From positions 62,001 through 126,000 of the forward strand of contig DATJRY010000010.1 of the NCBI GenBank assembly GCA_035504415.1: a stretch of DNA of 64,000 nt, read 5' to 3'. The notes under the pieces are model-generated. The model was not told the origin of the DNA. It was given only the letters and a program-made list of their open reading frames with translations, and did no database searches. Positions 12,450-17,022 of this stretch are shown piece after piece (the stretch's first letter is position 1; the number at the start of each line of letters is the position of its first letter). The DNA comes from Candidatus Sulfotelmatobacter sp. GTDB taxonomy: Bacteria > Vulcanimicrobiota > Vulcanimicrobiia > Vulcanimicrobiales > Vulcanimicrobiaceae. The translations under genes and the position numbers were made by a program.

Positions 12450-14108
12450 TCACCCGGATCGTGGCCATGTAGGTTCTGCGCTCACCGATACCACCGGTAC
12501 GCCAGGGCTGCCGTACGGGGGATTCGGCGGGCCGATGCCGCGGCGTCGCGCGGCGACGATGAGCTCTTGCATCGAGTGGGCACCAAAGGCTGCTTGGATC
12601 TCGCCGATATGATTGCGCACCGTCCCGATGGCCAGGCCGAGCAACGCTGCCGTTTCTTTCGGGCTGACGCCGTCGAGCAGGCGGCGCAAGACGTGTCGAC
12701 GCATCGGCGAGAACGCCGCGACGATGGGATCGTCGTACGCGCGCAGCCACGGTCCGAGACGATCGGCGAGGAACGAGGCCGGGTAGTCGCTTCGAACCAA
12801 CCGGGCTGCGCGGTCGAGATGCGCTGCGGCATCCCCACCCGGCATCGGCACCGTATCGAGCTCGACGAGCGTTCGGGCGACGCGCCAGTGATTCGATATC
12901 CGGGCAAAGAGATTGCTGGCGTCCAGGAAGGAGCGGTGAGCACCAGCGAGGTCACCGTCCGTCCGGCGCGCAAGGCCGTCGATAAACGCAAAGTGCGCGG
13001 CGATCCGGTCGTCGTCGCGATTGTTCGTATTCGGATCCAGCGTTCGCAACGCGATCTCGACCATCCCCAGCAGCTCACGCGCGGCCGCAGGGTTGCGCGT
13101 TGCGAGCGTCTCGGCGACCAGAACCGGAGCGTGACCGTCGAACTCGTCGTGACGCGCCCAATCGATCCGCCGGCACAGCTGAAGGGCTTCATTCGCGTAA
13201 TCGAGAGCGGCCTCGCGATTGGCCAGGACGTCGGCGAGCAGCGCGCGTTGGCCCAACGCCCAGACGAGTCTGGCCGGCGAGTCCGCCAAGTCGACGGCAC
13301 GCCGACTCAGGCGCAATGCTTCGGCGCGGTCACCGTCGAGCGCGGCGAGCCACGCATCCATGCCGAAGGTGATGTGGCCCAGGAAGCGCATACGCTTCGA
13401 GGCCGTATAGTCGAGCGCGCTCCGACGCCGCACCGGTCTGGTGTCACGGACCTCTGCCGATCGCAAGACCAGCTCGAGCTGTGTGATGTTCGAGTGGTAC
13501 AGCGCTTCAGCCACGTCGTCGCGATCCCCACCGCGCTGGTAGGCGGCCACGGTCTCGCGGAAGAGCGCGAGTGCCTCATGGTATTCGCCTCGTCTCAGCC
13601 TGCGAGAGGCGAGGGTCGACCGCGCGTGGATGGACCAGGTCGGATGCTCGTACGCCCGGGCGATCGAGGCGCGCTCCTCGCACGTCACGTCGTCGCCGGC
13701 GACGAAATAGGCGTACCCCTCGTGATAGGCGCACTGCGCTTCGAGATCCGGCGTGTCGACCGCGCCGGGGGTTCGGCGAAGCTCCGCGAGCAGGGCGAGC
13801 GCGCGATCCGGCTGACCGCTGCGCGTGAGTCCGGCCGCGAGCATCAGCCGTACGCGCGCGGCGTCCCGCGGATCTGCGAACACCCTGGGGTCGACGTCGA
13901 GGCAGGCCACCATCGCGCTGAACGCTCGCGTGCGCCAAAGCGCGAACGCGCGCAGGACGAGGACGTCAGCCGCGGCTGAGCCGGTGAGGCCGCCGCTTGC
14001 CTCGAGTGCGTCGAGGGTTTCCAAGCAATGCTCGAACGCCGCGCGCGACCAGAGCTCGCGCGCGGCGCGCAGGGCGCGCTCGGGATGGACGGCGATCGCC
14101 GCGTTCAT
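12450..14108 (-). CDS. TPR-like LuxR-type transcriptional regulator (paralog B)
   Basis: A 552-residue protein built of many short helical repeats (about residues 1-450, TPR-like) and a C-terminal LuxR-type HTH: LDGVSPKETAALLGLAIGTV then RNHIGEIQAAFGAHSMQEL. No N-terminal ATPase or receiver domain is visible. It is closely related to the gene just upstream, and the pair overlap by ATGA (14105-14108), so they are co-transcribed. A role as a sensor-regulator using the repeats for ligand or protein binding is inference. Confidence 0.75.
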   Translation of the reverse strand: MNAAIAVHPERALRAARELWSRAAFEHCLETLDALEASGGLTGSAAADVLVLRAFALWRTRAFSAMVACLDVDPRVFADPRDAARVRLMLAAGLTRSGQPDRALALLAELRRTPGAVDTPDLEAQCAYHEGYAYFVAGDDVTCEERASIARAYEHPTWSIHARSTLASRRLRRGEYHEALALFRETVAAYQRGGDRDDVAEALYHSNITQLELVLRSAEVRDTRPVRRRSALDYTASKRMRFLGHITFGMDAWLAALDGDRAEALRLSRRAVDLADSPARLVWALGQRALLADVLANREAALDYANEALQLCRRIDWARHDEFDGHAPVLVAETLATRNPAAARELLGMVEIALRTLDPNTNNRDDDRIAAHFAFIDGLARRTDGDLAGAHRSFLDASNLFARISNHWRVARTLVELDTVPMPGGDAAAHLDRAARLVRSDYPASFLADRLGPWLRAYDDPIVAAFSPMRRHVLRRLLDGVSPKETAALLGLAIGTVRNHIGEIQAAFGAHSMQELIVAARRRGIGPPNPPYGSPGVPVVSVSAEPTWPRSG

Positions 14109-15739
14109 CGGTTCCAAGACTGCGGCGGACCGAGGCCGCGCAGGCGCGCGGCGACGAGCAGCCCTTGCATCGAGTGCACCCCGAAGGCTGCCTGGATCTC
14201 GCCGATGTGGTTGCGTACCGTACCGATGGCCAGGCCCAGCAGCGCGGCGATCTCCTTCGGTTTCACGCCGTCGAGCAGACGCCGCAAGATTTGGCGACGC
14301 ATCGGTGAGAACGCGGCCGTCACGGGGTCGTCGTATGCGCGCAGCCATGGGCCGAGCAAGTCGGCGAGAAACGACCGCGGGAAGTGAAAGCGTACTGCCT
14401 GCACGGCGCGTTCGAGCAGTTCCGCGGCGTCGCCATCGGGAACCGGAACGGTGTCGAGCTCGATGAGGGCGTGCACTTCACGCCACAGGAAGGTGACCGA
14501 GGCGAAGAGTCGACTCGCGTCGAGCAGATCCCGGTGTGCGCCGGCGTGATCGCCCTCGGTGCGACGGATGAGGCCGGAAACGAACGCGTACATGCCGGCA
14601 TTGCGACGATCGTCGACGTTGGTCGAGTACTGTTCGATCGTCTTGACCGCCAGCTCGTACATCCCGAGGAGCTCACGCGCGACCGCCGGATTTCGCCGCG
14701 CGAAGAACTCCGCCAGGAAGAGCGGCCCGTAGGCCTGTCCCTCGGTCATTTGCGCCCAGTCGATGCGCCGCGCGTACGAGAGCCCTTCCGCCGCAACGTC
14801 CGCGGCGGCTTCTCCGTTGTCGAGCAAGTCCATCACGACCGCGCGCGTGGCCATCGGCCAGATGCTCCGCTCGGGCTCGGGATTGAGGTCGACCGCTCGT
14901 CGCAGCAGTCGGAACGCTGCCGGACGGTCGCCATTCAACGCCGCGAGCCAGGCGTCGACGCCGCACACGGTGCTGGCCAGCCTGCGGGATACGAGCGATG
15001 CGGTGTAGTCGAGGCCGGCCTCGCGCCGCGCGACGTAGGCGCCCGCAACGCCGGCGCTGCGCAGGTGCAGTTCGAGTGCCGCGACGTGAGCGACCAGCAG
15101 CAGCTCGTGATGGTCGTCGCGATCGTGCTCGCGGCCGCGGTCGTACGCGGCGAGCGCGTCCCGAAGCAGTCGCAGCGCAGCCGGATAGTCGCCGTGGCGC
15201 TGTCGCCACCACGCGCGCACTTCTCTGCTCGAGACCGACCAGTGCGGATCGTCGAACGCTTCGCACGTCAGCGCGGCGTGGACGCTCGCGTCCTCCGCAC
15301 CGAGCACCCAATGCATGACCGCCTCGCGGTAGGCGCACTCGGCAGCCAGGCGCGGGTTGTCCAGGGCGCCCGGCGTCCGGCGAAGTTCCGCCAGCATGTC
15401 GAGCGCCCGTTCGACGTCGCCGGTGCGTGTAAGCGCCGCGGCGCGTTGCAGCTGTACGCGAGCGGCGTCCTCGATGGTCGTCACCGTTGCAGCGTCCAAA
15501 CGCGCGAGCGTCTCGCTATACCTGCGTAGGCGCAGGAGCGCGCGCGCGCGCAGGATGAGTGCATCCGCTGCCGTCGCCGTCCCGGCCACGAGGCCACCGC
15601 TCGCCTCCAGAGCGTCGAGGGCCTCCAGGCAGCGCTCGAAAGCGCCACGCGCCCAGAAATCGGTCGCCTCGCGCAGGGCCAACCCCGGGTGGATGACCAG
15701 AGCGGCGCTCACCGCCGCGCCGATCCGAGCCGTGGTCAT
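14105..15739 (-). CDS. TPR-like LuxR-type transcriptional regulator (paralog A)
   Basis: A 544-residue paralog of the downstream gene with the same plan: helical repeats, then the LuxR HTH LDGVKPKEIAALLGLAIGTV / RNHIGEIQAAFGVHSMQGL. Shared blocks include LEALDALEASGGL, MLAELRRTPGALD and PWLRAYDDP. The ATG at 15739 (MTTARIGAAV) is chosen because the homologous block begins just after it. It diverges from the ssuA leader across a short control region. Confidence 0.75.
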   Translation of the reverse strand: MTTARIGAAVSAALVIHPGLALREATDFWARGAFERCLEALDALEASGGLVAGTATAADALILRARALLRLRRYSETLARLDAATVTTIEDAARVQLQRAAALTRTGDVERALDMLAELRRTPGALDNPRLAAECAYREAVMHWVLGAEDASVHAALTCEAFDDPHWSVSSREVRAWWRQRHGDYPAALRLLRDALAAYDRGREHDRDDHHELLLVAHVAALELHLRSAGVAGAYVARREAGLDYTASLVSRRLASTVCGVDAWLAALNGDRPAAFRLLRRAVDLNPEPERSIWPMATRAVVMDLLDNGEAAADVAAEGLSYARRIDWAQMTEGQAYGPLFLAEFFARRNPAVARELLGMYELAVKTIEQYSTNVDDRRNAGMYAFVSGLIRRTEGDHAGAHRDLLDASRLFASVTFLWREVHALIELDTVPVPDGDAAELLERAVQAVRFHFPRSFLADLLGPWLRAYDDPVTAAFSPMRRQILRRLLDGVKPKEIAALLGLAIGTVRNHIGEIQAAFGVHSMQGLLVAARLRGLGPPQSWNR

Positions 15740-15816
15740 CCTTGACGATTCTGCTAACGAGCAGCCTCGTCTTTTCGACGTCCCGCGCCGCTCCGGCCGG
15801 CCTCCGACCGAACAAC

Positions 15817-15845
15817 TTGACGCCGCGCCGGGCACATGGTATGGT
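15817..15845 (+). promoter_or_regulatory. Sigma70-like promoter of the ssuA leader
   Basis: TTGACG (15817-15822), 17-bp spacer, TATGGT (15840-15845). Predicted transcript start is near 15852, about 180 bases before the ssuA GTG. This is the best-spaced sigma70-type promoter that I found in the window. Confidence 0.6.
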
Positions 15846-15851
15846 CGGCGC

Positions 15852-15960
15852 ACTCATGCGTTCGATGAGCTGTCGGCTCGCAATGTCCATGTGCTGCTCC
15901 CCCGGGGGTCGGCCAGGGTCCGTATGAGCTGATCGCGCGCCGCGCGACCACCGTCTACAG
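15852..15960 (+). ncRNA. Structured 5' leader of ssuACB, candidate riboswitch or attenuator
   Basis: About 110 bases between the promoter and an intrinsic terminator. Visible structure: hairpin CTCAT/ATGAG (15853-15869), a CCCCCGGGGG palindrome near 15898-15907, and hairpin TCGCGC-GCC-GCGCGA (15933-15947). ATGAGCTG occurs twice (15865 and 15924), so CTCAT has two possible partners, as in a switch. I could not match it to a known riboswitch class; part of it (GTATGAGCTGATC) faintly recalls the pyrophosphate half of the TPP aptamer but the CUGAGA element is absent. Confidence 0.5.
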
Positions 15961-15991
15961 AGCCCTCGCCGACCGGCGGGGGCTTTCGTTT
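15961..15991 (+). terminator. Intrinsic terminator inside the ssuA leader
   Basis: Stem AGCCCTCGCCG (15961-15971) with CGGCGGGGGCT (15974-15984), followed by TTCGTTTT. The gene upstream is divergent, so the only transcript it can end is the leader itself, which implies attenuation or a small RNA. Confidence 0.7.
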
Positions 15992-16032
15992 TCGCTCCGC
16001 TCGCTTTCCCATCGCATCAGGAGGCGTCCACC

Positions 16033-17022
16033 GTGACCTCGTTCCCTCGCTCTCGATTTCTCGGCCTAACCGGCGGCGTCGCGCTCGCCGCGGCCGTCCC
16101 GCGCGCCGTGCGCGCGGCGGAGCCGGACCGCATCGGCGTCGACTACGCCTACTACAACCCGCCCAGTCTGGTGCTCAAGTCCAAGGGTTGGCTCGAAGAG
16201 GCGCTCCTCAAGCGCGGGACCGCGGTCGACTGGGTGCTCTCGCTCGGATCCAACAAGGGCAACCAGTTCGTGCAGGCCGGGACCGTCGCGTTCGGCTCGA
16301 CGGCCGGCAGCGCCGCCTTCCTCGCGCGCGCCAACGGCACACCGCTGCACACGGTCTTCCTCTATTCGCGGCCGGAGTGGACCGCGCTGGTGGTGGCCAA
16401 GGACTCCCCGCTGCGCTCGCTGCGCGATCTCAAAGGGAAGAAGATCGCCGCGACGCGCGGGACCGACCCGTGGTTCTTCCTGCTGCGTTCGTTGGCGACG
16501 GTCGGCCTGACGCAGGACCAGGTCACCATCGTCGATTTGCAGCACCCCGACGGGCGGGTGGCGCTCGAACGCGGCCAGGTCGACGCCTGGGCGGGCCTCG
16601 ACCCGCACATGGCGGCCTCACAGCTGGAGGCCGGATCGCGGCTGCTCTATCGCAACGTCGCGTTCAACACCTACGGCACGCTCAACGCGCGCGAGGACTT
16701 CCTCGCGCAGCATCCCGATCTGACGCGCATCGTGTTGCAGCAGTACGCGCGCGCTCGGCAATATGCGGCCGCGCACGTCGACGAGACGGCGGCTCTGTTG
16801 GCCGACGCCTCGCACCTGGACCGCAGGGTCGCCGAGCTGCAGCTGCGTGAGCGCACGAGCTACCCGGGCACGGGCGTCCCGGACCGGGACTTCCGCGCGG
16901 CGATCGGCGGAGTGGTCAGCTTCGTGCGCTCGGAGAAGCTCGCGCGGCCCGACGCGGACCTGGACGCTTCGGCGGCGAGCTTGGCCGACGCGGCGCCGGC
17001 GACGTTGGCGCTCCGTGGCTAG
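16033..17022 (+). CDS. ssuA: ABC importer substrate-binding protein, sulfonate/taurine type
   Basis: A 329-residue periplasmic binding protein of the SsuA/TauA/NMT1 group. It starts with a signal peptide (about 1-29, AVRA/AE). Typical features are the early YYNPPSLVLKSKGWLEE, GSTAGSAAFLARANG and SLRDLKGKKIAATRGTDPWF. Its GTG has AGGAGG upstream. It is followed by matching permease and ATPase genes, overlapping by 8 bases. Aliphatic sulfonate is the likely ligand, but other small organic ligands in this family (nitrate-like, pyrimidine precursors) cannot be excluded. Confidence 0.8.
   Translation: MTSFPRSRFLGLTGGVALAAAVPRAVRAAEPDRIGVDYAYYNPPSLVLKSKGWLEEALLKRGTAVDWVLSLGSNKGNQFVQAGTVAFGSTAGSAAFLARANGTPLHTVFLYSRPEWTALVVAKDSPLRSLRDLKGKKIAATRGTDPWFFLLRSLATVGLTQDQVTIVDLQHPDGRVALERGQVDAWAGLDPHMAASQLEAGSRLLYRNVAFNTYGTLNAREDFLAQHPDLTRIVLQQYARARQYAAAHVDETAALLADASHLDRRVAELQLRERTSYPGTGVPDRDFRAAIGGVVSFVRSEKLARPDADLDASAASLADAAPATLALRG

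Follow-up and report, generated by a model that had tools for sequence, protein, structure and literature searches.

Classical attenuators (trp, his, pheA and others) carry a leader peptide with regulatory codons and a choice between an antiterminator and a terminator, with the position of the ribosome acting as the switch, and their leaders usually have a Shine-Dalgarno sequence and a longer 5′ UTR. The distribution of such attenuators among amino-acid operons has been covered previously (PMC2965389). For cysteine, the computational candidate uORFC-8-2, which is found before cysS in Rhodobacterales, combines tandem Cys codons at positions 14–15 with an intrinsic terminator (PMC8632094). In mycobacteria, leaderless uORFs of the polycysteine type (Canestrari 2020, as cited in PMC9094748 and PMC13236596; noted earlier in PMC1262725) are described as acting by translation attenuation (PMC13236596; PMC9094748), and actinobacterial Cys leaders are reported to be without obvious terminators (PMC1262725). 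A full-text search of one collection of papers under the current name of the phylum, Eremiobacterota, returned no leader-peptide or riboswitch account for this group.

Our analysis of a window of 64,000 nucleotides, i.e., the whole stretch of DNA under study, indicates that the leader of its ssuACB operon is, with high probability, a ribosome-mediated transcription attenuator that would sense charged tRNA-Cys and possibly also Met, as judged from sequence features and modelled folds. Among the systems described so far, the uORFC-8-2 candidate comes closest. Both have tandem Cys codons (codons 13–14 here, 14–15 there), a terminal intrinsic terminator and proposed read-through upon stalling, a likeness judged by the codons and the terminator as described. 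In contrast to uORFC-8-2, the ssuACB leader belongs to another phylum, its target is not cysS, and its start codon lies almost at the predicted 5′ end; it matches no Rfam model, and Rfam may not include uORFC-8-2. With the mycobacterial uORFs, which are leaderless or near-leaderless, it shares a Cys-rich ORF ahead of sulfur and cysteine genes, here with a start that is predicted to be near-leaderless, but it has an intrinsic terminator and a putative antiterminator. Compared to the classical attenuators, the regulatory codons, the proposed antiterminator/terminator choice and the proposed ribosome position as switch are alike, whereas the ORF of the ssuACB type begins 0–5 nt from the predicted transcription start, is directed to Cys/Met and occurs in Eremiobacterota. 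The part that may be new is the near-leaderless start together with an intrinsic-terminator switch across a sulfur regulon.

The leader lies in an intergenic region of 15740–16032, so delimited because the divergent LuxR-type gene upstream has its probable start near 15739 (Table 1). An earlier note on this DNA had described this divergent gene, a TTGACG-17-TATGGT promoter, an intrinsic terminator and the ssuA ribosome site, and all four hold. The promoter agrees with the consensus at 9 of 12 positions, a quality for which shuffles would be expected to yield 0.1 sites, and relatives show the same −35 and −10 boxes at equal distance from the leader start codon. The terminator, for which 15961–15991 had been given, exceeds shuffles at slightly shifted coordinates, and GGAGG stands just ahead of the GTG start of ssuA. 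SsuA itself scores 200 bits against its family model (cut-off 163.5), and every one of the nearest named ssuA matches is labelled Eremiobacterota or WPS-2. Beside ssuACB, two minus-strand genes (12450–14348 and 14105–15739) encode long proteins that resemble each other and end in a DNA-binding domain of the LuxR type; they probably represent a tandem duplication.

Table 1. Features of the ssuACB leader region in the window and leaders of the same design at other genes (own genome, the genome to which the window belongs).
Feature	Position	Strand	Basis
Promoter, −35 TTGACG and −10 TATGGT, spacer 17	15817–15822 (−35), 15840–15845 (−10)	+	consensus scan
Leader-peptide ORF MRSMSCRLAMSMCCSPGGRPGSV, 23 codons followed by a stop	15856–15927	+	read from sequence; relatives have a Cys-rich ORF in this position
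First Cys codon, codon 6, TGT	15871–15873	+	sequence
Tandem Cys codons 13–14, TGC TGC, proposed stall site	15892–15897	+	sequence
Putative antiterminator 5′ arm GGTCGGCcAGGGT	15907–15919	+	complementarity; stalled-ribosome fold; one compensatory pair
Small GC hairpin, downstream of the leader stop codon and ahead of the terminator	15933–15947	+	predicted fold
Intrinsic terminator hairpin, tail CGTTTT	15959–15986	+	terminator search exceeding shuffles; kept in relatives
Putative antiterminator 3′ arm GCCCTcGCCGACC, comprising terminator 5′ side and loop	15962–15974	+	complementary to 15907–15919
ssuA ribosome-binding site GGAGG	16020–16024	+	read from sequence; AGGAGGC kept in relatives
ssuA, sulfonate ABC transporter substrate-binding protein, start GTG 16033	16033–17022	+	TIGR01728
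ssuC, ssuB	after ssuA, to 18456	+	ABC permease and ATPase domains
Sulfite/nitrite reductase leader MSFTCCLSMMQC	own genome		
Peroxiredoxin leader MFETGRSAMCCCLC	own genome, L134, L287 (C19:22081 onward)		
metY-like leader MIAHSREMMSMC	own genome		
metB-like leader MIRTTAASMMRMM	own genome		
ilvE-like aminotransferase leader LPVAKILV, Ile/Leu/Val codons	own genome, L135 (C19:88395)		
hom leaders	L010, L011, L012, L238, L240, L242, L243, L252–L254		

Two elements had been overlooked, namely the short ORF, in which Cys codons stand in tandem, and the putative antiterminator arm within it. Transcription is predicted from the promoter position to start at ∼15852, which would place the start codon of the ORF only ∼4 nt downstream; across the leaders the start codon is found 7–10 nt past the −10 box, corresponding to a predicted 5′ UTR of 0–5 nt. 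The encoded peptide begins with MRSMSCRLAMSMCC and is rich in Cys, the amino acid of the pathway; it matched none of the NCBIfam models. The stop codon (15925–15927) is located just beyond the antiterminator arm, an intrinsic terminator lies between the ORF and ssuA, and the computed antiterminator and the terminator are mutually exclusive.

The ORF, its codons, the complementarity and spacing of the arms and the conservation of all these are read from the sequence, whereas we infer that the ORF is translated, that ribosomes stall on it, which amino acid is sensed and that transcription terminates in vivo. A ribosome would load almost at the 5′ end of the nascent transcript and translate the 23-codon peptide behind the polymerase. 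When cysteine is plentiful, it would reach the stop codon and mask the antiterminator arm, so that the terminator forms and ssuACB is off. When cysteine is short, the ribosome would stall on the tandem Cys codons and leave the arm free to capture the 5′ side of the terminator while the 3′ side is yet to be transcribed, and the polymerase would continue into ssuACB. The small GC hairpin of the predicted fold possibly shortens the loop of the antiterminator, and Met codons beside the Cys codons may add sensing of Met.

The folding part of this model was evaluated with a ribosome footprint masked from −14 to +15 relative to the P site, where a stalled ribosome was placed on the last Cys codon. 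The readout was the probability that the arm holds the 5′ side of the terminator at a stage when its 3′ side has still to be transcribed. In the window this probability is 0.74 for the stalled ribosome, 0.00 for a ribosome at the stop codon and on average 0.09 in spacer shuffles (p 0.02; the floor for a single leader is 0.016 with 60 shuffles). Over 33 leaders the probability averages 0.65 with a stalled ribosome, 0.07 with a ribosome at the stop codon and 0.23 in the shuffles; the contrast between stalled and at-stop ribosomes is partly imposed by the masking, and the contrast to the shuffles is the real test. For 23 non-redundant leaders the combined Fisher p is ∼5e-12. Low scores were obtained for two leaders (G010 and G015). 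Full-length folding at equilibrium lets the completed terminator win in most leaders, and the decision of the switch therefore needs to be made during transcription. Arm-terminator duplex energies and swaps of arms between genera gave a weak contrast, because all of the sequences are GC-rich; of these approaches, including the equilibrium folds, masking of the ribosome footprint was the one that proved informative. In line with a conserved antiterminator, one pair shows a compensatory change, being G-C in five leaders of the genus and A-T in four, and A-T also in genus g43. This covariation is not explained by pairing within the terminator, since the 3′ base of the pair lies in the terminator loop.

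Conservation was analyzed at the 17 ssuA genes found in 99 genomes of the family. A Cys-rich leader ORF directly follows the −10 box at 15 of these loci from five genera (nine leaders from the genus of the window and six from four other genera; e.g., VSNQYCLMAMCICCLPYRDRRASA, MPALIACTSPCCRPALGRRSFHLI and MLSQAMMSSCMSMCCTSRCR), and no such leader was found at the remaining two (L032 and L039). The earlier note had proposed a search for homologous leaders, and a DNA search detected the leader in eight further genomes of the genus, where a protein search placed ssuA downstream. All 15 leaders have Cys codons at codons 11–15, and in all of them the best antiterminator arm begins 10–17 nt past the regulatory Cys codon. 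Cys codons in frame 0 number 48, whereas dinucleotide shuffles contain 23 ± 3.8 and never more than 36 (n = 1000). Substitutions within the genus number 7, 5 and 10 at codon positions one to three, a weak coding signal that is mildly codon-like; that the ORF is coding is thus based on the Cys enrichment and the recurrence, and not on dN/dS. Outside the genus, the Cys codons, the position of the start codon and the antiterminator geometry are kept, whereas the sequence and the terminators differ.

The same design recurs at other genes. In the window's own genome, a promoter-plus-start-codon pattern gave 18 matches, compared to 6 with a reversed control pattern; a second, looser search contributed detail only for the matches it shared with the first. 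Six distinct sites, ssuA included, are attenuator-like with fitting codons, the names of the target genes being read off the protein sequences without database searches. Several of the other matches are regulator-like ORFs that likewise start directly past the −10 box, and leaderless starts thus look normal in this genome. Among relatives the design is also seen before cysH and sulfite reductase, and the peroxiredoxin leader with its terminator is present in two further genera (L288 and L290, the latter with the peptide ICCCCL). Met/Cys-rich near-leaderless peptides with terminators precede hom (homoserine dehydrogenase) in many genera of the family. In relatives, pheA (prephenate dehydratase) is preceded by leaders with Phe/Tyr/Trp codons, such as YAYWYSF-like peptides (L016, L018 and L019). 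No such leader was found at trpE loci or at the PAPS-reductase loci examined in other families of the phylum. Attenuation at ssuACB is supported by this recurrence of the layout, with codons to match, at further sulfur genes and at genes of the aromatic and branched-chain pathways. A scan for the full architecture matched once in the 64 kb window, at the ssuA leader, and not at all in ten shuffles; among 69 loci outside Eremiobacterota it gave one match, which is implausible.

Of the other explanations, the one that fares best retains the leader peptide and has it act via translation attenuation or Rho instead of the intrinsic terminator. Such a mode would fit a near-leaderless polycysteine ORF of the kind found in mycobacteria (PMC9094748; PMC13236596), but we consider it improbable: a strong intrinsic terminator and a suitably placed antiterminator arm follow the ORF in 15 leaders, and the ribosome site of ssuA lies beyond the terminator.

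Still less probable is a new riboswitch in which a separate aptamer, situated upstream of the terminator, would bind a sulfonate, SAM, cysteine or a similar metabolite. The earlier note had favored a new sulfur-related riboswitch, and its view of an attenuator-like leader before sulfur genes stands. Indeed, a leader and terminator ahead of a sulfur operon are kept in the genus, and, as that note had also surmised, the leader belongs to no known Rfam class: an Rfam scan gave no match to it at the gathering score or at E ≤ 10, and none was found at the gathering score in the window or at 14 related ssuA loci. Known riboswitches and T-boxes were rejected on the lack of any covariance-model match and of excess folding. 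The riboswitch itself is not borne out. The leader, for which ∼110 structured bases had been reported before the terminator, does not outdo dinucleotide shuffles in folding, whether the terminator is left out (z +0.75) or included (z −1.15), and these bases are therefore no evidence for an aptamer. Likewise, the octamer ATGAGCTG does occur twice (15865–15872 and 15924–15931) and CTCAT is present at 15853–15857, but their pairing as a switch is not conserved: the first copy occurs in the window alone and is missing from eight genus relatives, about half of which show a CTCATG/CATGAG pairing at a different place, and this switch was dropped. Moreover, what is kept beyond the genus is not the sequence or the terminators but the Cys codons, and leaders built alike, but with different amino acids, precede other pathways. 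Thus, the ssuACB leader is most likely a leader-peptide switch and not a new riboswitch, by which sulfur would be imported when cysteine is short, and the tempting riboswitch assignment is corrected.

Chance, i.e., an ordinary 5′ UTR that combines an unrelated short ORF with a terminator, is hardly credible: the p of merely 0.02 for the fold test of a single leader and the ease of pairing in GC-rich sequence would leave room for it, but 15 of 17 ssuA loci share the layout, further genes have it with amino acids that suit them, and the shuffled 64 kb sequences and the loci outside the phylum yielded nothing plausible.

With attenuation as the preferred reading, it appears rather likely that near-leaderless attenuators form a genome-wide network in this family of Eremiobacterota, covering sulfonate import, sulfate/sulfite reduction, Met synthesis, hom and peroxiredoxin, plus aromatic and branched-chain genes, and that they replace the riboswitches, T-boxes or repressors on which other organisms rely. 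Leader-peptide attenuation at ssuACB would extend this mode of control to sulfonate uptake and to a phylum that is poorly known and for the most part uncultured. The sequence at the peroxiredoxin leaders suggests a link between cysteine supply and this antioxidant enzyme. The succession of a −10 box, a start codon within ∼10 nt, Cys/Met codons, an antiterminator and a terminator provides a signature for finding such regulons. Start codons a few nucleotides after a strong −10 box were also observed at regulator-like genes of the window's own genome (L122, L129, L131 and L132), and by this arrangement leaderless mRNAs may be common there.
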